Source of the DNA: a virus
Length of the DNA: 41,949 nt
Strand: one strand, 5' to 3'
IMG/VR virus record: IMGVR_UViG_3300044675_003261
Coordinates: 1 to 41,949 of that record
Under the pieces are notes generated by a model. The model was not told the origin of the DNA. It saw only the letters and a program-made list of their open reading frames with translations, and made no database searches. Made by a program: the position numbers and the translations under genes. This document shows, piece after piece, positions 5,457 through 16,071 of this stretch. Positions within the stretch are counted from its first letter, which is position 1; each line of letters begins with the position of its first letter.

Positions 5457-6479
5457 ATGGCTCATATGATTGACGAAACCACCGGCCGCGCTGCTATTGC
5501 TTACGCTGGACAAACCCCCTGGCATGGTTTGGGTCAGGCCCTAACGCCTGGCGCAAGTATTGAGACATGGGCCCGCGAAGCAGGCCTTGCATATGATGTG
5601 CTTGAGAGCCCCGTTAAGTATTCCACGCCGGCCGCGACGGAGCTGCAAACCTGGCCAGCGCGTAAAGTGCTGCACCGGTCCGACACCGGCGCGCCCTTGG
5701 CGGTTGTGTCAAGTGCCTATAACGTGGTGCAGCCCGGCCAGGTAATGGACTTCTTTCGCCAGCTGGTAGACCTGGGCGGGTTTGAGCTTGAGACCGCCGG
5801 CGCCCTCAGTGACGGCCGCCGGGTTTGGGCCCTGGCCCGCGTCGGCGATGCTGCGCCTGTGGTCGACGGCGACCTGGTCAAGCCTTACTTGTTGCTGGGC
5901 ACGTCATATGATGGAACCATGGCGACCGTCGCAAAATTCACGGCAATTCGCGTGGTGTGCAATAACACCATAACGGCCGCCGTCGGCGGCTACAGTGGCG
6001 GCCGCGTGGTCCGTGGCGAGGGCGAGATAAATACCGGTTACCTAAAATCGGCCGTCCGGGTTTTGCATTCTGAACGCTTCGACGCCGACGCTGTGCGGCT
6101 GCAGCTGGGGATTGTGGCGAATGCCTTTGAGGGTTTTCTAGTGCAGTCCCGGCAGTTGGCCGGCCAGACCATGGACATGGTCCAGGCGGATGCATTCGTT
6201 GCCGAGCTGTTGCGCCCTTATCATTCCAGCGCGCGCCCGGTGACCGAGTCAAAAGCTTATGTGCGGATCATGCAATTATTTAACGGCCGGGCGATCGGCT
6301 CTGACTTGCCTGGCGTGGCCGGCACCCGCTGGGCTATGTTTAACGCGGTAACCGAGCTGGTCGACCACGAGCGTGGCCGCTCGAATAACACCAGGATCGA
6401 ATCGGCATGGTTTGGGACCGGTGCAGCACTTAAGGCCCGGGCCGCCGAGCTGCTCGCCGCCGAGCTGGTAGGGGTTTAA
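5457..6479 (+). CDS. DUF932 phage/plasmid-like protein
   Basis: A 340-residue cytoplasmic protein of the DUF932 family (TIGR03299, 'phage/plasmid-like protein'). The typical start is visible: MAHMIDETTGRAAIAYAG, then TPWHGLGQ. Also visible are the middle block (VLHRSDTGAPLAVVSSAYNV) and the core ending in VAKFTAIRVVCNNTITAA. The length matches the family. Members occur in phages, plasmids and genomic islands, often near anti-restriction genes, but their biochemical role is not established. It has its own promoter and leader and is followed, two bases after its stop, by a 69-codon gene ending at a shared terminator. It is the best-recognised gene of the cassette island. Confidence 0.85.
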   Translation: MAHMIDETTGRAAIAYAGQTPWHGLGQALTPGASIETWAREAGLAYDVLESPVKYSTPAATELQTWPARKVLHRSDTGAPLAVVSSAYNVVQPGQVMDFFRQLVDLGGFELETAGALSDGRRVWALARVGDAAPVVDGDLVKPYLLLGTSYDGTMATVAKFTAIRVVCNNTITAAVGGYSGGRVVRGEGEINTGYLKSAVRVLHSERFDADAVRLQLGIVANAFEGFLVQSRQLAGQTMDMVQADAFVAELLRPYHSSARPVTESKAYVRIMQLFNGRAIGSDLPGVAGTRWAMFNAVTELVDHERGRSNNTRIESAWFGTGAALKARAAELLAAELVGV

Positions 6480-6804: not shown

Positions 6805-7104
6805 ATGTCCTGTTTTGTTGTCCCTGATTATCACGTGACCACCGGCCGCGCCCCGGTTCCACTGTTGCTGAATGCTGCCGGCCGCGTCGGTGGCCGTCTG
6901 CGCCTGGTGCAGCTGTTTCGCCTGGCCGGCGCTGGCTTGGTCCGGGTTACATGGTCCGCCACATGGTCCGAGTATCAAGTACGCGCCACCGGCCCCGGCG
7001 GCCGCCTGGTGGCCGAGTACTTCACCGACGACAGGGCCGACGCCCTAGGCACGGCCGACGCCATGCTGGCCGAGCTGGCCGCAGCTGCCGGGGTTCCGGC
7101 ATGA
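6805..7104 (+). CDS. small hypothetical protein, last cassette of the island
   Basis: A 99-residue protein with a beta-rich middle (RLRLVQLFRLAGAGLVRVTW, then EYQVRATGPGGRLVAEYF) and an alanine-rich C-terminal helix (ADALGTADAMLAELAAAAG). A GTG at 6793 would add four residues, but it lies within the conserved leader motif, so the ATG at 6805, spaced like those of the sister cassettes, is preferred. Its own promoter and terminator make it a complete single-gene transcription unit. Codons are very GC-rich with many GGCC tetramers, as in the neighbouring cassettes. No family recognised. Confidence 0.62.
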   Translation: MSCFVVPDYHVTTGRAPVPLLLNAAGRVGGRLRLVQLFRLAGAGLVRVTWSATWSEYQVRATGPGGRLVAEYFTDDRADALGTADAMLAELAAAAGVPA

Positions 7105-7127
7105 GCTGGCCGCGTTAGTTCGATTCA

Positions 7128-7155
7128 AACCCGGCCAGGCGCCGGGTTTTTTTTT
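7128..7155 (+). terminator. rho-independent terminator
   Basis: AACCCGGC, the loop CAGGC, then GCCGGG and nine T (7147-7155). It closes the cassette island and isolates it transcriptionally from the terminase and structural genes downstream. Confidence 0.9.
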
Positions 7156-7290
7156 CGCCCGGTATCGGCCTGCCGGCCTGGGAATAGCTTAAACCTATCG
7201 CAAACCCCGGGGCCATAGTCCGCGCCATGCCAGGCCGCGATCCAGGCCCGGCCAGCGCGTGATCCGTGGCGCGCGTATCGTGGCTTGGTG

Positions 7291-7490
7291 GCCGTGGCCA
7301 TGGGGGCCGCCGGCCGTGGCCATGGGGGCCGCCGGCGCTTGGTCCGGTGTTTGTGTTTGTATGTCCGCCGGCCAGGTGTTTGTATGTGCGACATACAAAC
7401 AAGGCCCGGCCAGCTGCGGCCGCCGGCCGTGGCCATGGGGGCCGCCGGCCGTGTCCATGGGGGCCGTGGCCATGGTGGCCGCCGGCCGTG
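7291..7490. repeat. degenerate 21-base GC-rich tandem repeats
   Basis: Units of the form CCGTGGCCATGGGGGCCG recur at 7293, 7314, 7428, 7449 and 7464, mostly at 21-base spacing (7293 to 7314, 7428 to 7449). The units are split into two blocks by the TGTTTGTATGT cluster. Each contains the palindrome GGCCATGG or CCATGG. Two helical turns per repeat would place bound proteins on the same DNA face. Confidence 0.7.
7354..7401. repeat. TGTTTGTATGT direct pair with inverted third copy
   Basis: TGTTTGTATGT is found at 7354-7364 and 7377-7387 (23 bases apart). Its exact reverse complement ACATACAAACA is at 7391-7401. The last two copies form an 11-base-pair perfect stem with the three-base loop GCG. 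No T-run follows, so it is not a simple terminator. It lies between the two blocks of 21-base repeats. Confidence 0.8.
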
Positions 7491-7576
7491 GTCGGCGTTC
7501 CTGGTAACTTTCGCCCCGGTGCCCGGCGCCCCGGTTCGCGGGCCCTAGCACGTAAGTGAGCACCCACCCGCCCCGG

Positions 7577-7594
7577 GGCCCGAAAAAACGGGCC
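7577..7594. other. GC hairpin with six-A loop
   Basis: GGCCCG, AAAAAA, CGGGCC: a perfect six-pair stem closing a six-adenine loop. There is no T tract after it on either strand, so a terminator role is unlikely; a structural or protein-binding role is possible. Confidence 0.55.
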
Positions 7595-7636
7595 GGGGGG
7601 GAAGCGGCGCAGGCTTTAGCCTTGTTTTACACGGTA

Positions 7637-7652
7637 AGTTTCACGTGAAACA
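7637..7652. promoter_or_regulatory. parS: parS-like ParB binding site
   Basis: AGTTTCACGTGAAACA contains the perfect 14-base palindrome GTTTCACGTGAAAC and matches the widely conserved chromosomal parS consensus TGTTTCACGTGAAACA at 15 of 16 positions. ParB-family CTPases load on this sequence and spread along DNA. No parA or parB gene is in the window, so the ParB would come from the host or another part of the phage. It sits about 90 bases before the large terminase start, in the non-coding block. Another regulator using the same palindrome cannot be excluded. Confidence 0.7.
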
Positions 7653-7684
7653 CTTTTAGACCCCCAACAATAAAAGGGCCCCCT

Positions 7685-7713
7685 TTGTGTAACAAGTCAA
7701 CCTGTGCCAAAAT
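7685..7713 (+). promoter_or_regulatory. candidate promoter for the large terminase gene
   Basis: TTGTGT at 7685-7690, a 17-base spacer and CAAAAT at 7708-7713. The spacer contains ACAAGTCAACCTGT (7692-7705), which matches the ACAAGT-N2-ACTTGT dyad of the promoter at 4593 with one change in the right arm. The match to sigma70 is modest; support comes from the shared dyad and the position 30 bases before the ATG. Confidence 0.5.
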
Positions 7714-7743
7714 TTGTGCAAATTTAAAACGAAACGGACTTTT

Positions 7744-9201
7744 ATGATCCCTGAAGAAATTGACGCCGAACGGCTAAAGCTTGAATACCGACTGGCGCAG
7801 ATTGACACGCAAGACAAGGCCAAGACCGGCTTCCTTGATTTTGCACGCTATGTCTGGCCAAGCGCGATCCTCGGTGAACATCACTCGGTTATGGGCAAGG
7901 CTTTTGACCGGATTGCTGCGGGGTCCTTGAAGCGTTTGATCATTAACATGCCGCCTCGGCACACAAAGTCTGAGTTTGCGAGCTTTCTTTTGCCGGCCTA
8001 TCTCATGGGCCGTGATCCGCGAACCAAGGCTATTGAGGCGACGCACAACAGTGAGTTGGCGGTGCGATTCGGCCGGAAAGTCCGTGATTTGATGGACACG
8101 GATGTGTATAAGGATTTGTTTCCTGATGTTAGTTTGAAGCAGGACAGCAAAGCTGCCGGCCGGTGGGACACGAGCAAGGGCGGGGAGTATTTTGCGGTTG
8201 GTGTTGGAGGTGCGATGACGGGCCGTGGTGCGGATGTTTTGATCATTGACGACCCGCATTCGGAGCAGGATGCGATGAGTGAGTTGGCTTTGGACAATGC
8301 GTGGGAGTGGTACAGCTCGGGTCCTCGTACGCGATTGCAGCCGGGCGGGGCGGTGGTGATTGTGATGACGAGGTGGGGGACAAAGGATTTGACGGCGCGG
8401 TTGCTCAAGGCGCAGAAATCACGGAACGCGGATCAGTGGGAGGTGATTGAGTTTCCTGCCATCTTGCCATCGGGTAAACCCTTGTGGCCGGAGTTTTGGA
8501 AGCTGGAGGAGTTGGAAGGCGTGAAGGCTAGTTTGTCGGTACAGAAGTGGAATGCAATGTACCAGCAGCAGCCTACGAATGACGAGGGTGCGATCTTGAA
8601 GAGGGAGTGGTGGAGGGTCTGGCCGCATGATGAGCCGCCGGTGGTGAACTACATTATTCAGTCGATGGACACGGCGTATTCCAAGAAGGAGACGGCTGAC
8701 TTTTCTGTTATCACGACGTGGGGTGTGTTTTACGAGAATGAGGATTCTGGGGCGTCGATTATTTTGTTGGATGTTAAGAGGGGGCGTTGGGATTTTCCGG
8801 AGTTAAAGCGCATTGCAAAGGAGCAGTATGACCATTGGCAGCCAGACAACGTGTTGATTGAGGCGAAGGCCACGGGCACGCCTTTGCAGCAGGAGTTGCG
8901 GCGGATGAGTATTCCTGTGACGATGTACTCGCCGGGGGGCAGGAGAACGGGCACGGACAAGGTGGCGCGGGCCAATGCGGTGGCGCCTGTGTTTGAGGCG
9001 GGGATGGTTTGGGCACCTGACACGGAGTGGGCGGAGCTGCTTGTTGAGGAGTGCGCGGCTTTCCCGCACGGGGACAACGACGACATGGTGGACAGCACGA
9101 CGATGGCAATGGACAGGTTTCGGCGGGGTAACTTTATTAGCTTGGCCACGGACGACAACGAGGAAAGGGAAACGGGAGACCTTGTGCCGGAGTACTATTG
9201 A
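7744..9201 (+). CDS. terL: terminase large subunit
   Basis: A 485-residue packaging motor and nuclease that drives DNA into the procapsid through the portal. The ATPase domain shows an adenine-motif region near MGKAFDRIAAGSLKRL, a Walker A variant MPPRHTKS (69-76), Walker B VLIIDD (165-170) and a coupling motif around VIVMTRWG. The nuclease domain carries the acidic residues D309 (QSMDTAY), E373 (LIEAKATG) and D447/D450 (HGDNDDMVD). The C-terminal half matches the TIGR01630 type (psiM2-like terminase). I start it at ATG 7744; an in-frame TTG/ATG region upstream at 7714 overlaps the putative promoter. Length is normal. It begins the late operon. Confidence 0.93.
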   Translation: MIPEEIDAERLKLEYRLAQIDTQDKAKTGFLDFARYVWPSAILGEHHSVMGKAFDRIAAGSLKRLIINMPPRHTKSEFASFLLPAYLMGRDPRTKAIEATHNSELAVRFGRKVRDLMDTDVYKDLFPDVSLKQDSKAAGRWDTSKGGEYFAVGVGGAMTGRGADVLIIDDPHSEQDAMSELALDNAWEWYSSGPRTRLQPGGAVVIVMTRWGTKDLTARLLKAQKSRNADQWEVIEFPAILPSGKPLWPEFWKLEELEGVKASLSVQKWNAMYQQQPTNDEGAILKREWWRVWPHDEPPVVNYIIQSMDTAYSKKETADFSVITTWGVFYENEDSGASIILLDVKRGRWDFPELKRIAKEQYDHWQPDNVLIEAKATGTPLQQELRRMSIPVTMYSPGGRRTGTDKVARANAVAPVFEAGMVWAPDTEWAELLVEECAAFPHGDNDDMVDSTTMAMDRFRRGNFISLATDDNEERETGDLVPEYY

Positions 9202-9240: not shown

Positions 9241-12200
9241 ATGAAATACACTACTTTGTCAGATGACGACATGGACAATGTCCAAAAGTTTGCCTTTGGT
9301 GGCATTGCCAATCCTGCTCAAAGGGCGTTTCTGCGCGCATCGGATCGTGAGTATTTGGCCGAGCGCCAAGCGGAGCTGGACGCGTTTGAGGAGCAGCGCC
9401 AATCGTACAACACGGGTTTGGCCAAGTACCAAGAAGAGGTGTACAACCCTTACCAGCAGCAGTCCCAAGCGTACAACGCAGCGGCCCAGCAGTACAACAC
9501 CGATGTGTACAACCCTTACCAGCAGCAGTACGGCGCGTATGAAAAAGCTGTGGCGGATTTTAACGCGGGGGATCGCACCTCTGACTATGCGGGCCCGGCA
9601 GAGCCGACACTGGCAAGGCAGTTTGACATGCAAGCGCCCACGGCCCCGGGGTCCTTTGACATGGCAGCGCCTGTCCTGCCGTTCAAGGAAGAGGAGATTG
9701 TGGCCCGTCAGCAGCAAGCCGCAGAAACAGCGCGCAGGGATGCGGGCAACCGCGCCACTGCCCTTAACGTGGTCAGCAACCCGGATCAGTTTAACTTTGG
9801 ATCAATGTCCATTGCCAATCGGTTTATGGCCGAAGGGGGCGAAGTGAAAAGAAAATCAGCCAAGGAAATGCTGATGGAGATGGCCGAGGGCGGGGAGGTT
9901 GGCATTGACAAGAACGAGCAAGCAAGGCGCGAGCAAACAGCGCGCGAGCAGGCAAGGTTTTTGGAGAGCGGACTATCCGCTGAGAAGTACGCCAAGCAAG
10001 AGGAGGAGCGGGAGGAGAGCGTAAGGCTTGGCATTGCCGCGCGCGAGCAGGCAGCGGCTTGGGCGAGCGGAAAATCAGCCAAGGAAATGTTGGCCCAGCT
10101 GCGAGAGGCCCAGCTTGCCAGTTTTCTTTCGCGAACAAAAGGAGGTGTAACAGTCCCTCTAAGCGAAAGCGAAGCGCACAAGGACAGTGCAAAGCGGGCT
10201 CAGTACGGCAGACAGGCCCGAAAGGAAGAGCTGGCAAGGCGCGAGCAAGGAAAAACAAATCCTGTAGCCCCGCCGGTAGCTCCACCGCCGGTAGCTCCAC
10301 CGCCGGTAGCTCCACCGCCCGTAGCTCCGCCTGTAGCTCCACCGCTCGTAGCTCCGCCGGTAGCTCCACCGCCGGTAGCTCCACCGCCCGTAGCTCCGCC
10401 CGTAGCCCCGCCGGTAGCTCCACCGCCGGTAGCTCCGCCTCCTGAGGCCCCGATCTTTGCGCAGCCCGGCATCAGCCCTGGAACCACGGCCATCGGATCA
10501 CCTGACATGCCGCTTGCCGGCGCGTTGAATACTTTGAACGCAATTGGCGCCAACCCTAACTTGTCGCCTACTATGCTGGGTGGTCAGCAAAACGCGGGGG
10601 TAATGACAGACCGTTTGGGCAACCTTATTTATTCTCCCGGAGCACCCCAAGCGGTACCGGCGGCATCGCCTATGCCCGACCCAATCTTTGCACGGCCCGT
10701 AATTAGCGCTCCCGGTGTAATAGGCTCTCAAGCGGAAATGTTGCCCGTGTCTGGCGGCACCGCTTCTGAAGACTTTTCCCAGTTAAATGCGGTACCGGCG
10801 GCATCGCCTATGCCAGTGCTAAACCTAGCCAGCAACGTTAGCTCTCCTATTGCAGGGGCTCCCACTCCCTTGGGCAGCGCCCCAAGCACCGCGCCTCGTG
10901 AACAAGGGGGCATGGCCAACGGCCCTGCGGCCCTTGGCATTAATGCCCAAGGCCCGGTTATTAATACCCAAGGCTTGGCCATGCCGATGTTTAACAACTC
11001 GGGCTTGGGCGGTGCAGCGACAAATCCTCAGAGCTACTTTTCAATGTTCAACCCCGGCCCGCCCGGCATTAGCTTGGGAGCCACGGCCATTGGATCGCCT
11101 GACATGCCTATGTACGGCGCGATGAACACGATGAACGCAATGGGCTCTAGCCCCAACTTGTCGCCCACTATGCTGGGCGGCCAGCAAAACGCGGGCTTTA
11201 TGACCGACCGTTTGGGCAACCGCATTTACTCTCCCGGTGCGCCTCTTTTGTACGGCTTTGCCAAGGGCGGCCTTGCTGACGCCACGGCCACGGCCAACGC
11301 CTACACCATGGAAGACGAGGAAGACGTGCCGGTTGACACAGACCCCGTAGGTTCGGCCAAAAAGATGCTGGCTGCAATAAAACCTTCAAAAAAGTCTGCT
11401 CCCTCGCCCATTGCCAAGAGCATTAAGAAGTCGGGCGGCGCAAGTGCCAGCAAGGAAATGGACATGGCCTACCAGCCCTTGTCCTCGGCCAAAGAACAAG
11501 TGCCCGAGCTTAGGGACTCGCGCTCTGCTAGGGCGCAGATGGAAGCCATGGCCGAGGCCTACAAGCTGCGTGCCCAAGCGGCGACGCAGCAGTCTAAGGG
11601 GTTTATACGCGACACGATGAACGCGCCTACTTTGGACAGACCCAACTTGGGCAAAAACACTTTGACAGCCAAGCGGTTTAACGAAGGGGGTGAAGTGGAG
11701 CTGACGCAAGAAGAGATTGACGCGGCGAGCAAGCCTGCGTTTGTGACGCCGAAGTCTGGCATAGGCCGCAAGGAAGGCCCGATCAGCCAAGCGTTGAAGT
11801 CGGGCGAGGCGTATGTGAACGTGGCCAAGGGCTTGACGGAAATGCCGTACAACTTGGCAGGCGCGCCTATGGATTTGGCGATGTTGGCAAGGCAGGGCTT
11901 AACGGGCCAGGCCCCGGCCGGCCAAGTAGGCACCAGCGACTACATCAAAAACAAGATGACTGAACTTGGCATTCGCCAAGCGCCACCTACCGATCCGACG
12001 GCCAAGGGCTTTTACACTGCCGGCGATCTGTTGTCTAACTTGGTCAACCCCGCATCTGTGCCGCGCAAGGTGGGCCCGGCAATTGAAAAGGGTGTCAAGG
12101 CTGGCGCCACTGAGGTGGGCCGTCAGTTAGACCGTGCCATTATGGACAGCGCCGGTCCGTTGGCCGGTGTAGTGCCCGACGCCGCGCGCCCCATGTACGC

Positions 12201-13731
12201 GGTCCGCCCAACGGGCAGCACCATGCTTACGGGCCCCGTGGGTTTAAACAAAAACGTGAGTGAAGTTGACCAGCTGTTGCAAAGCGGTGTGAGCAATGCC
12301 AAAAGCGCTGCGGGTCAAAACGAGGGCCAGCAAAAACTCCTTGAAGATTTTTGGGGCAAGAAAGCCCGCAATTACTTTGAACGCCAATTTGGCACGCCGG
12401 ACGACCCAATTATGGAAGGCATCAAAGCAGGGACGCTCAAGGGCACAGCATTGTCTTCCGACTTAAAGGCAGGGTTCCCCGAGCACCTTATTGAGTCCAT
12501 GTCACTTGGGAAAACGCGGTCAAAGGAGGGCGCTCGTTCAACCCCTGAGTTTGTGGGACCTGGCAAAGCTGAAACTCGGTTTTTTCCAAAACACCCCAGA
12601 GCAATCGAGGACTTTACACAGCGGTATGACACGGCCACGGGGCTTAGAGGCAACCTAATCACCACCAACCCTGCCGCAGCTGACCCAGACTACAATTTAA
12701 TTACCTCCGAAGGCCGGGCCATGGGCCGTGCAGCTTCGGAAGCTGCGGCAGACAAGATGCTCAACCAAGGCATGCGCCCTGAACTGATCAACCCTGAGGT
12801 CGGTGTCACAACCCGTTCTGTTAAGGACCCTGAGCGCATCGTGAGTGACAACAGCACCCGTTCGGCCAAGGACCTGTACGAAGCCTTTGAGGAGTCCTCC
12901 GCTTACAACAAGCTGACGCCAGAGCAACAACTTGAGTGGGCTAACACTCAATATGGCAGTGGCCGTAGCGCGTTGAGGGGCATGCAACCGCCGGAAATTG
13001 GGCCAAACTTGCTGGGCGAGAACGTGCGCACCGCCATTGAAAAGGGCGAGCCTGTGTACGACATCAATTACATGGGCAAAACCTTGCAGTCTTTGTTTAA
13101 GCCTGACAACATTAACGAGTACTTGGCCGGCCTGCCTCCCCGCGAGCTTGCCAACATTCGCTTTGAAGATGCAGTACGCGGCGGATTAAAGATTGGTGAA
13201 AAGCAGTTCAAAATGCAGGGATACGTTGACCGTATCAAATCGGGCAAACCTGTGGCAGACAACGTGTTTTCTGAGGGCGTAGGCAAGCCTCTAATACAAT
13301 TTGGCGAGGGCTCAGGACTTGATGGGTTCGCTTGGAAGCGTATTGAAAAACGCGAGGCCACCATACCAGAAGGGGCGTATGTAGGCCACTCCGTAGGCGG
13401 ATATGAGACGGGTGGAGTAGGGTATACAACCGACAAGCGCAATGGCTTTAACACAGGCAAGTGGCAGGTATATACTCTACGTGACAACAGAAATAGACCT
13501 GTCAACACAATTGAGGCAAAAATGCTTGATGAGGATACGCTTGTTGTAACGCAGATTAAGGGCAATGGCCGGGCTACGGGCAACACCGCTCCGGAAAAGT
13601 ATGACGGAGCCGTTTTGAAGTTTCTTCAAGACTACTTAAAACCAGTAGCCATTGAAGAGTCGGACAGCCTCCTGACTCCTTTGTTGCAAAACTACAAAAT
13701 AGAGCTTGGCGCATCGCCACGTGCTCGATAA
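9241..13731 (+). CDS. large multi-domain virion-associated protein (polyvalent-protein-like)
   Basis: A 1496-residue protein between terminase and portal. Residues 1-180 are rich in glutamine and tyrosine (repeats of YNPYQQQ). Residues 180-340 are charged helices with AEGGEV motifs. Residues 341-402 are PVAPP repeats. Residues 409-469 and 608-668 are a duplicated 61-residue block (AIGSPDMP, SPTMLGGQQNAG, YSPGAP). Residues 860-1000 form a helical region. Residues 1340-1470 carry VGHSVGGY (1381-1388), VYTLRDNRNRP and VTQIKGNGRATG. This matches a C-terminal module seen in large phage proteins, in which the motif is usually GHCVGGY. It is probably packaged and injected with the DNA, a role inferred from position and architecture. 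Confidence 0.6.
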   Translation: MKYTTLSDDDMDNVQKFAFGGIANPAQRAFLRASDREYLAERQAELDAFEEQRQSYNTGLAKYQEEVYNPYQQQSQAYNAAAQQYNTDVYNPYQQQYGAYEKAVADFNAGDRTSDYAGPAEPTLARQFDMQAPTAPGSFDMAAPVLPFKEEEIVARQQQAAETARRDAGNRATALNVVSNPDQFNFGSMSIANRFMAEGGEVKRKSAKEMLMEMAEGGEVGIDKNEQARREQTAREQARFLESGLSAEKYAKQEEEREESVRLGIAAREQAAAWASGKSAKEMLAQLREAQLASFLSRTKGGVTVPLSESEAHKDSAKRAQYGRQARKEELARREQGKTNPVAPPVAPPPVAPPPVAPPPVAPPVAPPLVAPPVAPPPVAPPPVAPPVAPPVAPPPVAPPPEAPIFAQPGISPGTTAIGSPDMPLAGALNTLNAIGANPNLSPTMLGGQQNAGVMTDRLGNLIYSPGAPQAVPAASPMPDPIFARPVISAPGVIGSQAEMLPVSGGTASEDFSQLNAVPAASPMPVLNLASNVSSPIAGAPTPLGSAPSTAPREQGGMANGPAALGINAQGPVINTQGLAMPMFNNSGLGGAATNPQSYFSMFNPGPPGISLGATAIGSPDMPMYGAMNTMNAMGSSPNLSPTMLGGQQNAGFMTDRLGNRIYSPGAPLLYGFAKGGLADATATANAYTMEDEEDVPVDTDPVGSAKKMLAAIKPSKKSAPSPIAKSIKKSGGASASKEMDMAYQPLSSAKEQVPELRDSRSARAQMEAMAEAYKLRAQAATQQSKGFIRDTMNAPTLDRPNLGKNTLTAKRFNEGGEVELTQEEIDAASKPAFVTPKSGIGRKEGPISQALKSGEAYVNVAKGLTEMPYNLAGAPMDLAMLARQGLTGQAPAGQVGTSDYIKNKMTELGIRQAPPTDPTAKGFYTAGDLLSNLVNPASVPRKVGPAIEKGVKAGATEVGRQLDRAIMDSAGPLAGVVPDAARPMYAVRPTGSTMLTGPVGLNKNVSEVDQLLQSGVSNAKSAAGQNEGQQKLLEDFWGKKARNYFERQFGTPDDPIMEGIKAGTLKGTALSSDLKAGFPEHLIESMSLGKTRSKEGARSTPEFVGPGKAETRFFPKHPRAIEDFTQRYDTATGLRGNLITTNPAAADPDYNLITSEGRAMGRAASEAAADKMLNQGMRPELINPEVGVTTRSVKDPERIVSDNSTRSAKDLYEAFEESSAYNKLTPEQQLEWANTQYGSGRSALRGMQPPEIGPNLLGENVRTAIEKGEPVYDINYMGKTLQSLFKPDNINEYLAGLPPRELANIRFEDAVRGGLKIGEKQFKMQGYVDRIKSGKPVADNVFSEGVGKPLIQFGEGSGLDGFAWKRIEKREATIPEGAYVGHSVGGYETGGVGYTTDKRNGFNTGKWQVYTLRDNRNRPVNTIEAKMLDEDTLVVTQIKGNGRATGNTAPEKYDGAVLKFLQDYLKPVAIEESDSLLTPLLQNYKIELGASPRAR
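10261..10446 (+). repeat. in-gene proline-rich (PVAPP) repeat tract
   Basis: About 12 imperfect units of GTAGCTCC(A/G)CC(G/T) encode PVAPP/PPVAPP within the 1496-residue protein. It should form an extended polyproline linker. The near-identical DNA copies make length change by slippage likely between relatives. Confidence 0.85.
10465..11244 (+). repeat. in-gene duplication of a 61-codon block
   Basis: Two blocks, about 10465-10647 and 11062-11244, encode nearly the same 61 residues. Both start PGIS and contain TAIGSPDMP, NLSPTMLGGQQNAG, MTDRLGN and IYSPGAP, and they are separated by about 415 bases. Differences are scattered substitutions, so the duplication is not very recent. Confidence 0.85.
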
Positions 13732-13740
13732 GGAACACAC

Positions 13741-16071
13741 ATGGCAATCGAAAAAGCAATGAACCGGATGCCCACCCTTGAGGTGGTAATAGGCGGCGGC
13801 ATCCCAGGACCCCAGTCAGACATTGAAATTATTATTGAAGAGGACGGTGGGGCCGTCGTGGAGATGGGTGAACAAGACGCCGAGGAGGTGGACTTTTACG
13901 CCAACTTAGCAGAGGTCATTGACCCAGATGACACGGCCATAATGGGCTTGGACGTTGCCGCTTTGTTTGAGGCCGATAAGGGCTCACGCTCCGATTGGGA
14001 GCAGATGTACGCTAAAGGCCTTGATCTGCTCGGCTTGCGCATTGAAGAGCGCACCAAGCCCTTTCGTGGAGCCTCTGGCGCTACGCATCCAATGCTCACT
14101 GAGGCCATCATTCAGTTCCAAGCACAGGCTTTCAAAGAACTAATGCCGGCTGGGGGCCCTGTCCGCACGCAGATTATGGGCAAAGAGACGGTGGAAAAGT
14201 TCCAGCAGGCCGGCCGTGTGCAGGATTTTATGAACTACCAGATCACCACGGTGATGGAAGAGTACACGCCTGAGTTTGACCAGCAGCTTTTTTACACGGG
14301 CTACGGCGGTTCGACCTTTAAAAAGGTCTACTACGACTTTCAACTAGGCCGCATGGTGTCCAAATTGTGCCTAGCCGACGATGTTTACATCCCCTACAAC
14401 GGCTCAAGCGTCGTGTCCCAGTGCCCACGGCTCACGCACCGTATTGCGATGGACTCAAACGAGTACCGCAAGCGTGCTTTGGCGGGCGAATACCTTGACC
14501 TTCCGGTTGAAACGTATGCCGCGCCGTCAGACCCGGGCCACATCCAGTCTGCAATTGACAAAATTACCGGGATTCAACCCACAACCAACGAAGGCGAAGT
14601 GTTTTTGTTGGAGCAAATGGTTGATTTAGACCTTCCAGGCTTTGAAGACAAAGACGAAAAGGGTGCCCCAACCGGGATCAAGCTGCCATACGTAGTGACT
14701 TTGGTCGAAGACAGCCTAAAAGTGGTTGGAATTCGCCGAAATTGGAAAGAAGACGACAAAAAGAAGAACCGTCGCAACTACTACATTCACTATGTGTTGG
14801 TTGAGGGCCCGGGGGCATATGGTTTGGGTTTTGTGCACTTAATTGGGGGCCTTAGCAGGGCTGCAACCAGCGCTTTGCGTCAGTTAATCGACGCTGGTAC
14901 GCTTGCAAACCTGCCCGCAGGCTTTAAAGCCAAAGGAGCACGGATCGCGGACGACTCTACGCCGATCCAACCGGGTGAATGGCGCGACATTGACGCCGGT
15001 GGAGCCGAGCTGGCCGGGTCCTTGATGCCTTTGCCGTACAAAGAGCCAAGCCAGACCTTGTTCGGCCTGCTAGGCTTTCTTGTAGACGCCGGAAAACGGT
15101 TGTCGAGCACTGCCGACATGCAGATTGGCGACGGCAACCAGTACGCGCAGGTCGGAACGACTTTGGCGCTGTTGGAGCGGGGCTCCATGGTCATGTCTTC
15201 CATCCACAAGCGCTTGCACTACGCCCAGACTTTGGAGTTCCGCCTCCTGTTTGAAGGCTTTGGCGAATACTTGGACGACGAGTACCCCTATGAGGTCCCT
15301 GGCGCGAGCCGCAAGATCAAGAAGGCTGACTTCAACACCATGGTGTCGGTGCAGCCTGTGGCTGACCCCAACATCTTTAGCTCCGCGCAACGCATTCAGT
15401 TGGCCCAAATGCAATTGCAGCTGGCCCAAAGCGCTCCGCAGATGCACAACATGTATGAGGCCTACTACCGCATGTATGCGGCCTTAAATGTGCGGGACAT
15501 TGACGGCGTGCTGCTGCCTCAAAACACCAACATGCCTCGCGACCCTGCGTCCGAGAACAGTGACGTGCTTAACAGCATGAAGCTCAAGGCCTTTGCTGGC
15601 CAGCAGCACGACGCCCACATTGCAACCCACCTGATGATGGGCATGTCGCCCCTCGTCCAATCCCTTCCTGCTGCTGCGGGAGAGCTGCAAAAACACATCT
15701 TAGACCACGTTCGTCTTAAGGCGGAAGAAGACGTCGAAGCCGACCTGTTCAAGTCCTACGGTACCGATCCGGATAGGCTGATTTCGCTGATCCAAAAGGA
15801 GGGCATGATTGCCTTGCGCATTGCAAACAACCTGCAGGAAGTTCGCGACCTGCAGGACAGTTTGGCGGGAGGGGAAGAAGGCCCTGACCCCTTGATTAAA
15901 CTTAAGGAAGCTGAAATCCAACAACGAGCCAAGAACGACGAGGCTAAGATTGCCTTAGACCAGCAGAAGCTGGCCTTGGATCAGCAAAAGCAACAGTCGA
16001 CCCTTCAATTCAACCAGCAAAAGTTGCAACTGCAACAGGCCAAACAAACAGGAGGCCGCGATGCCGCGTAA
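13741..16071 (+). CDS. portal protein
   Basis: A 776-residue protein that should form the dodecameric portal ring at the packaging vertex, the docking site for the terminase and later the tail. Recognisable features are the N-terminal region leading into WEQMYAKGLDLLGLRIEERT and the conserved FRGASGATHPMLTEA, typical of portals of marine and freshwater short-tailed phages. The core includes GNQYAQVGTTLALLERGSMV, and the C-terminal part has long helices and a glutamine-rich coiled coil (LDQQKLALDQQKQQ). Length is close to P22-type portals. It follows the 1496-residue gene by nine bases. Its end overlaps the next small gene by 11 bases. Confidence 0.88.
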   Translation: MAIEKAMNRMPTLEVVIGGGIPGPQSDIEIIIEEDGGAVVEMGEQDAEEVDFYANLAEVIDPDDTAIMGLDVAALFEADKGSRSDWEQMYAKGLDLLGLRIEERTKPFRGASGATHPMLTEAIIQFQAQAFKELMPAGGPVRTQIMGKETVEKFQQAGRVQDFMNYQITTVMEEYTPEFDQQLFYTGYGGSTFKKVYYDFQLGRMVSKLCLADDVYIPYNGSSVVSQCPRLTHRIAMDSNEYRKRALAGEYLDLPVETYAAPSDPGHIQSAIDKITGIQPTTNEGEVFLLEQMVDLDLPGFEDKDEKGAPTGIKLPYVVTLVEDSLKVVGIRRNWKEDDKKKNRRNYYIHYVLVEGPGAYGLGFVHLIGGLSRAATSALRQLIDAGTLANLPAGFKAKGARIADDSTPIQPGEWRDIDAGGAELAGSLMPLPYKEPSQTLFGLLGFLVDAGKRLSSTADMQIGDGNQYAQVGTTLALLERGSMVMSSIHKRLHYAQTLEFRLLFEGFGEYLDDEYPYEVPGASRKIKKADFNTMVSVQPVADPNIFSSAQRIQLAQMQLQLAQSAPQMHNMYEAYYRMYAALNVRDIDGVLLPQNTNMPRDPASENSDVLNSMKLKAFAGQQHDAHIATHLMMGMSPLVQSLPAAAGELQKHILDHVRLKAEEDVEADLFKSYGTDPDRLISLIQKEGMIALRIANNLQEVRDLQDSLAGGEEGPDPLIKLKEAEIQQRAKNDEAKIALDQQKLALDQQKQQSTLQFNQQKLQLQQAKQTGGRDAA

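Follow-up and report, generated by a model that had tools for sequence, protein, structure and literature searches.

A single relocating, host-type parS site near the large terminase gene in a clade of aquatic phages and its putative recognition by host ParB

Identification of a chromosomal-type parS site

Why should a phage with no detectable partition genes of its own keep, immediately upstream of its large terminase gene, a site of the kind used in bacterial chromosome segregation? The question is raised by a 41,949-base virus record of a freshwater phage (the window, that is, the whole stretch of DNA that was analyzed), in which the sequence AGTTTCACGTGAAACA at positions 7637..7652 (no strand assigned; 14-bp core 7638-7651) agrees with the chromosomal parS consensus TGTTTCACGTGAAACA at 15 of 16 positions. 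The 14-bp palindrome 7638-7651 is intact, and the site thus has the sequence of a chromosomal-type parS. Its first base lies 107 bp upstream of the conserved ATG (7744) of terL (7744..9201, plus strand; phrog_38, E=1.4e-113), a start that is common to the relatives; a TTG codon occurs at 7714.

A preliminary description of this DNA had noted a near-perfect, single-copy parS beside the large terminase gene and had estimated that a fixed 14-mer would occur by chance about 0.0002 times in 42 kb. The observation itself is real and was confirmed on each of these points. Markov models of the window of orders 1-4 give 0.00007-0.0002 exact 14-mers per window, and the earlier figure was therefore right. 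At a tolerance of up to three mismatches the site is the sole match in the window (shuffled windows contain 0.17 matches on average, with one match in 17 of 100 shuffles), and the single copy extends to a longer record, G001 (60,786 bp), which has one parS-like site and a TerL 100% identical to that of the window. The terminal 60 bases on either side of the window both occur in G001, where they delimit a segment of exactly 41,949 bases, and G001 is probably a closed, complete circle because its ends overlap by 127 bp.

Organization of the terL leader

The left flank of the site (7605..7636, plus strand), a stem-loop-like CAGGCTTTAGCCTTG recognized by eye and followed by TTTTACACGGTA, defines what we call the ancestral register and serves to locate it in relatives. 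On the other side, between parS and terL, lies a nearly invariant element around AAAAGGGCCCCCTTTG (7673..7687, plus strand), which is the best-conserved 14-column stretch of the leader. In 30 leaders retained from 41 after dereplication, decayed ones included, its mean identity is 0.97, compared with 0.92 for the 14 core columns of parS and 0.78 for the flanks. The leader thus has more than one cis element, and the better conservation of this neighbor is a counterpoint to any reading centered on parS.

Farther upstream, a terminator-like hairpin with a T run follows a small ORF (7127..7155, plus strand); four terminator-like sites were found in the scanned stretch versus 1.5 in shuffled sequences, a statistically weak excess. 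A promoter scan of positions 7050-7800 yielded no sigma-70-like match. An RNA role for the leader was also considered, and is not supported because the folding stability is unremarkable (z = 1.42).

Conservation and turnover of the site

Related loci were collected as viral contigs by their TerL; the best 80 of 374 matches were fetched and combined with the window, and nine of these 81 loci with less than 180 bp upstream of terL were left out (among them L022, which has an exact site at -110), so that 72 loci, including the window, were counted. Among these 72, drawn from the best 80 of 374, the ancestral register is occupied in 32, window included, by a core with at most one mismatch located 104-110 bp before terL; this intact set includes L013 and L014, in which a central A is replaced by C, and L038, which differs at a single outer position. 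In another 36 loci the register has decayed (at least three mismatches where it could be placed; the contigs of L012 and L057 do not extend far enough to include it) and a single other parS-like site, defined as CACGTG with at most two core mismatches, is present elsewhere in the locus. No locus of the 72 has both a register site and another site, and four (L026, L032, L040, and L041) have neither. These numbers were counted row by row; an automatic tally gave 30, 36, and 6, as the intact L008 and L010 fall below its flank-score cut-off, and the register is weakly placed (flank score below 34) in L008, L010, L012, L055, L057, L062, and L069.

The intact sites show a restricted pattern of variation: 29 of the 32 register sites vary only at positions 1 (A/G/T) and 5 (T/C), and the T/C alternation at position 5 is the known parS wobble. 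The AAC at positions 13-15 is invariant across the 30 dereplicated leaders.

The replacement sites occur at various places around terL. In L060, L062, L064, L069, L076, and L081 the decayed register is followed by a second palindrome no more than 115 bp from terL; in L046-L051, L067, and L068 the site is at about -58; and exact 16-mers lie downstream of the terL start in L080 (+1934), L054 (+2906), and L053 (+3388). Elsewhere the site falls in the last codons of an HNH-like gene (recognized by eye) situated between the leader and terL, as seen in the sequences of L009, L018, L055, L059, L070, and L073 and, for other loci, by sequence similarity; its terminal LHVE or LHVK codons form the parS-like site, and this gene may home into parS. 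The distance between parS and terL is variable, from about -19 to -114, or the site is in a downstream gene. It is nonetheless within the few kilobases fetched around terL in 68 of the 72 loci (best 80 of 374), in a genome of about 61 kb.

The sites at the HNH ends are imperfect, with a complete heptamer GTTYCAC in one half and two mismatches in the other, which is a second counterpoint to a ParB-based reading. According to PMC10419367, the ParB protein of Pseudomonas aeruginosa binds this heptamer as a half-parS; the same paper describes half-site binding as relatively weak for Caulobacter ParB and as not observed for the B. subtilis protein.

Under the relaxed definition of a site given above (CACGTG with at most two core mismatches), 65 of 71 loci (window excluded) hold one site and none holds two, compared with 1.85 for Markov-simulated loci of the same composition; since the loci span about 4-12 kb, the single-copy count applies to that range. 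At the scale of whole records, G001, G004, and G007, the three with end overlaps, have one inner-10-mer site each, with G004 containing in addition a three-mismatch word without CACGTG. The 61.8-kb record G005, which lies behind the site-less L041, has no 16-mer with up to three mismatches and one weak inner 10-mer match, CATTCCACGTGAAGAT.

Close neighbors on the terL tree differ in the state of the site: L018 (HNH end) versus L024 (old register), L070 versus L071, and L009-L012 versus L004 and L006, while in the pairs involving L060, L062, L064, L069, L076, and L081 one member has the second palindrome where the other has the HNH-end site. Site state has thus switched repeatedly. One site per locus, with the old and the new mutually exclusive, is the pattern expected of a functional binding site undergoing turnover, and to judge from this comparison the parS site is under selection. 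Loss of the palindrome in close relatives, which the preliminary description had named as evidence against its proposal, is indeed found without replacement in 4 of the 72 loci (best 80 of 374), a point that counts against our reading; in the 36 decayed loci another site is present.

Specificity and distribution in viral collections

For an estimate of specificity we used 141 dereplicated leaders selected by TerL, leaving out the parS-selected loci as well as TerL matches with identity below 45%, fewer than about 380 residues, or less than 200 bp of upstream sequence. The exact 14-mer is present in 18 of these 141 leaders; of the 419 other palindromes obtained by permutation of the half-site, 418 are absent and one was found once. 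A site with the complete core (Y/R allowed) is present no more than 250 bp ahead of terL in 24 of 43 leaders at TerL identity of at least 80% to the window, in 1 of 6 at 66-80%, and in 2 of 92 at 50-66%. Thus parS near terL is common in the clade of the window and rare outside it, and its scarcity in the most distant class has to be set against a general role. The 10- and 12-base palindromes that recur ahead of terL in those 92 relatives are mostly A/T-rich, and no alternative parS-like consensus was seen among them.

In the viral collection as a whole, the exact 16-mer is present in at least 120 contigs, compared with 1 and 10 for two control palindromes. The lone 16-mer of the window would be insufficient by itself to dismiss a chance match. 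This explanation is nevertheless contradicted by the Markov expectation, the control palindromes, the half-site permutations, the turnover in 72 loci, and the simulated loci, and we regard its probability as negligible.

Among the matches listed, the large terminase is the commonest gene family within 2.5 kb of parS (27 of 120 loci, distant TerLs included). Where a TerL of the window type has its start on the contig, 14 of 23 of these parS-selected loci among the matches listed have parS within 250 bp upstream, versus 0.91 expected under uniform placement. A second terminase family occurs near parS in eight loci among the matches listed and is supported by annotated matches. By a crude ORF call, 87 of the 146 listed sites are outside and 59 inside long reading frames; the in-frame sites read VSRET or FHVK(H/Q), and 24 of them are near the N-terminus. 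A ParB_N match was obtained in 4 of 47 contigs chosen for length from the 120 listed, three of them above the cut-off.

Several contigs have TerLs only 27-30% identical to that of the window (L097, L124, L133, L155, and L178) and carry one to five exact parS copies, located either ahead of the terL match or within sequence that extends it at the N-terminus. Exact parS is also found in L086, L106, and L156 and in L089, L131, L174, and L176, which by eye we take to be small clusters of Microviridae-like and phi29-type phages. The cues to these classes in the parS contigs were a capsid gene with a replication initiator (Microviridae) and a protein-primed polymerase with a gp16-like ATPase (phi29-type). 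Nine isolates were scanned whole: phi29 was positive, and the exact site is absent from the other eight (CRP-901, ct7L0027, Pag-Yong1, MEP301, BcepC6B, EXVC031P, VA-RY-3, and Y3), which have more distant or other terminases.

Such a distribution bears on whether the palindrome is a packaging recognition site (pac or cos) with an incidental resemblance to parS. One copy per locus near the terminase gene would suit that role, as would the co-occurrence with HNH genes, which act with terminase in other phages. However, the agreement with parS extends over 14-16 bp with variation mainly at positions 1 and 5, the site is found as far as 3.4 kb past the start of terL, and the same exact parS recurs in the phi29-like and Microviridae contigs (assigned by eye), which package their DNA differently. 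We therefore consider a pac or cos site unlikely.

Gene content and lifestyle

The preliminary description had seen neither ParA nor ParB in the window, and domain searches agree. ParB_N was not found in the window or in 12 related records (0 of 13), and HTH_ParB, ParA-type AAA_31, and integrase (PF00589) were each not found in nine large related records; in 14 known genomes used as positive controls, the same searches detected ParB_N in 10, HTH_ParB in 9, and AAA_31 and integrase in all 14. A ParABS cassette, with parA and parB on the same replicon, was thus not detected in these records, nor were the integrase or partition genes that would mark a plasmid prophage or another temperate phage. 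G001 encodes its own primase, helicases, polymerase, and exonuclease, and the named relative DSL-LC04 is predicted to be virulent by BACPHLIP, as described in PMC10611076. On these grounds (no integrase, ParA, or ParB domain, own replication genes, a relative predicted to be virulent), segregation as a plasmid prophage, one of the roles suggested earlier, is disfavored; of the others suggested there, control of the late region, positioning in the host, and a connection with packaging are possible. The window phage looks virulent, virulence being the prediction made for DSL-LC04.

The same searches weigh on the idea that a phage-encoded regulator controls the late operon and has the palindrome as its operator. 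The position of the palindrome would be appropriate: a terminator-like hairpin precedes it, terL follows, and the leader contains a further conserved element. Yet ParB-type domains were not found (ParB_N in 13 records, HTH_ParB in 9), the distance to terL is free, and the same word recurs in unrelated contigs, all of which makes a dedicated phage operator rather improbable.

Possible hosts

Among the nearest named relatives, TerL identity to the window is 76% for DSL-LC04, 56% for HTVC027P, and 55% for HTVC023P. The exact site is absent from DSL-LC04, HTVC023P, and 023Pt_psg01; together with the eight negative isolates listed above, these stand against a general requirement for the site. HTVC027P, a cultured SAR11 phage of the same superclade, has one exact copy of the 14-mer. 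It is situated 4 kb before terL, compared with 107 bp in the window, inside an unannotated reading frame of 123 codons where it reads AFHVKHP; because of this location it could be partly coding, and it is a further counterpoint to our reading.

Among bacteria, 43 of the 60 genomes sampled from the SAR11 family to which G064 belongs (Pelagibacteraceae) carry a single copy of the 14-mer, whereas the reversed control occurs in none of the 60. In G064, the one genome examined, it is located within rsmG, adjoining parA and parB. A parS beside parAB in a host of a superclade phage was found for SAR11 only, and SAR11 may not be the host of the window phage. DSL-LC04 is predicted to infect Pseudomonas (PMC10611076, as described there), and its database record names Gammaproteobacteria. 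We also tried to assign a host from MAG bins; the bins with related TerL span many phyla, so that binning is uninformative on this point.

Possible role of host ParB and comparison with known systems

After binding to parS, ParB forms a closed CTP clamp that slides along neighboring DNA; it also contacts ParA and loads SMC. The earlier proposal that the phage may recruit the ParB of its host is strongly supported by the comparative evidence, namely selection on the site, relocation with maintenance of a single copy, identity with the SAR11 parS, and the finding of no phage ParB in the records searched. Considering this sequence evidence, we think it likely that host ParB would bind the site in vivo. 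The fuller statement, that a lone selected host-type parS, with no detectable parA or parB beside it and in a virulent-looking phage, loads host ParB at the head of the late genes, is probable.

By analogy with known ParB biology, the phage parS would be recognized by host ParB and would serve to load it as a CTP-dependent clamp, from where the protein would slide over the beginning of the late genes, a block running from terL to the portal gene (13741..16071, plus strand, downstream of terL; phrog_1216, E=9e-41). More speculatively, parS may exert a long-range effect on the late-gene region: the infecting genome could be anchored or partitioned by host ParA or SMC, and late transcription or packaging could be damped for as long as phage replication has not titrated ParB, which would be a kind of lytic deferral. 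A long-range effect appears the likeliest because the distance to terL varies, yet the site keeps to the beginning of the late genes, and since it is confined to the vicinity of terL at no fixed distance, a sliding clamp fits better than a classical operator. That the role of the site is exercised through the late region is, for all that, a tentative view.

A close precedent is phi29, which to our knowledge has no ParB of its own. Like the window phage, for which virulence is predicted from DSL-LC04, it is virulent and carries host-type parS, in the B. subtilis form GTTCCACGTGAAAC; there are four exact GTTTCACGTGGAAC sites and one near-match, spread over 19 kb. The host Spo0J traps the phi29 genome in the spore (Meijer et al. 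2005, as described in PMC9437464). The differences are that the sites of phi29 are several and scattered and its host forms spores, whereas the clade of the window consists of aquatic phages with one site near terL.

From this precedent it could be argued that host ParB serves positioning or partitioning only, for instance in carrying dormant genomes through the division of starved cells, and that the proximity to terL is incidental. The spread of the phi29 sites and the entrapment of its genome in the spore by Spo0J argue for it. But segregation requires no fixed place, yet 68 of 72 loci keep the site near terL in a genome of about 61 kb (best 80 of 374), and the freshwater hosts, unlike that of phi29, are assumed to be non-sporulating. 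A pure positioning or segregation role is accordingly possible, at somewhat lower confidence. From the sequence comparison we favor a combination in which the site acts on the late region and anchors the genome to the host segregation machinery, with simple positioning nearly as likely.

Sites for the ParB of another replicon are also known from the integrative element SGI1, whose two parS mimics bind the ParB of the helper IncC plasmid, as described in PMC10954446. The window phage, too, would be a mobile element with a parS-like site for a foreign ParB, here putative; SGI1 differs in having two copies, a plasmid ParB, and an incompatibility effect, whereas the window is from a phage and has a chromosomal-type site. 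These mimics are reported to act on the helper plasmid as decoys (PMC10954446), and multiplying phage genomes might similarly titrate ParB and disturb host segregation. Titration, however, does not require one site per locus or a preference for the terL region, and we hold a decoy function to be improbable.

Other phages with segregation or cell-cycle sites are organized differently. Phage P1 has its own ParABS. The mycobacteriophages RedRock and Miko carry complete parABS (PMC7157519, as described there). All three resemble the window phage in having parS on the phage genome, but they have genes for ParA and ParB and a parS type of their own, and as prophages they replicate extrachromosomally, whereas searches of the records of the window's clade gave no ParA, ParB, or integrase domain. 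Phages of Alphaproteobacteria contain sites for CtrA, a host cell-cycle protein, and these are associated with lytic deferment according to PMC9437464; they are clustered transcription factor sites, in contrast to the single putative ParB loading site of the window. The lambda-parS used in microscopy is a laboratory construct, as described in PMC13190303.

In the open-access literature, searched by titles and the beginnings of abstracts and with bioRxiv and most subscription papers outside it, we found no description of a lone host-type parS in this clade or of its link with terL and, phi29 aside, no virulent phage reported to make use of host ParB. What is new here, on our best reading of the sequences, is a putative use of host ParB of the phi29 type through a single relocating parS near terL in an aquatic clade. 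It is conceivable, although we propose it with reserve, that capture of orphan parS is recurrent in unrelated phages, mostly beside terminase, and that in the clade of the window the single relocatable parS is a ParB switch or anchor on the late and packaging region. If true, this would tie phage development to the host cell cycle. The single-copy relocating site near terL and the exact parS in viral contigs point to a widespread, testable link between chromosome segregation and phage development, and a phage parS offers a DNA tool for studying the action of ParB clamps on a genome that enters the cell.

Other features of the region

Between the terminator-like hairpin and parS lies a G+C-rich stretch without a recognized gene (7268..7503, plus strand), in which a repeat search revealed imperfect 22-nt iteron-like repeats. 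The repeat family, D1, has seven copies with spacings of 22, 22, 91, 22, 15, and 22, and the stretch also contains a perfect 12-bp inverted repeat, TGTTTGTATGTC / GACATACAAACA (I5; 7354..7401, no strand assigned). This is possibly an origin, a control region, or a packaging region; the relatives have different repeats at the same position. A DUF932 gene (5457..6479, plus strand; PF06067, E=3.6e-53) is located upstream of this control region.

Downstream, the GC skew is strong over 7850-9200 (about +0.3 to +0.4 from 8000), with its onset right after the leader, within terL. The 1496-aa product of positions 9241-13731 matched neither PHROG nor Pfam families; it occupies the position of the PcfJ-like protein of DSL-LC04. 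In the part of G001 outside the window there is a gene for a Mom-family DNA modification protein (L206:1109-1891; PF25680, E=1e-32).
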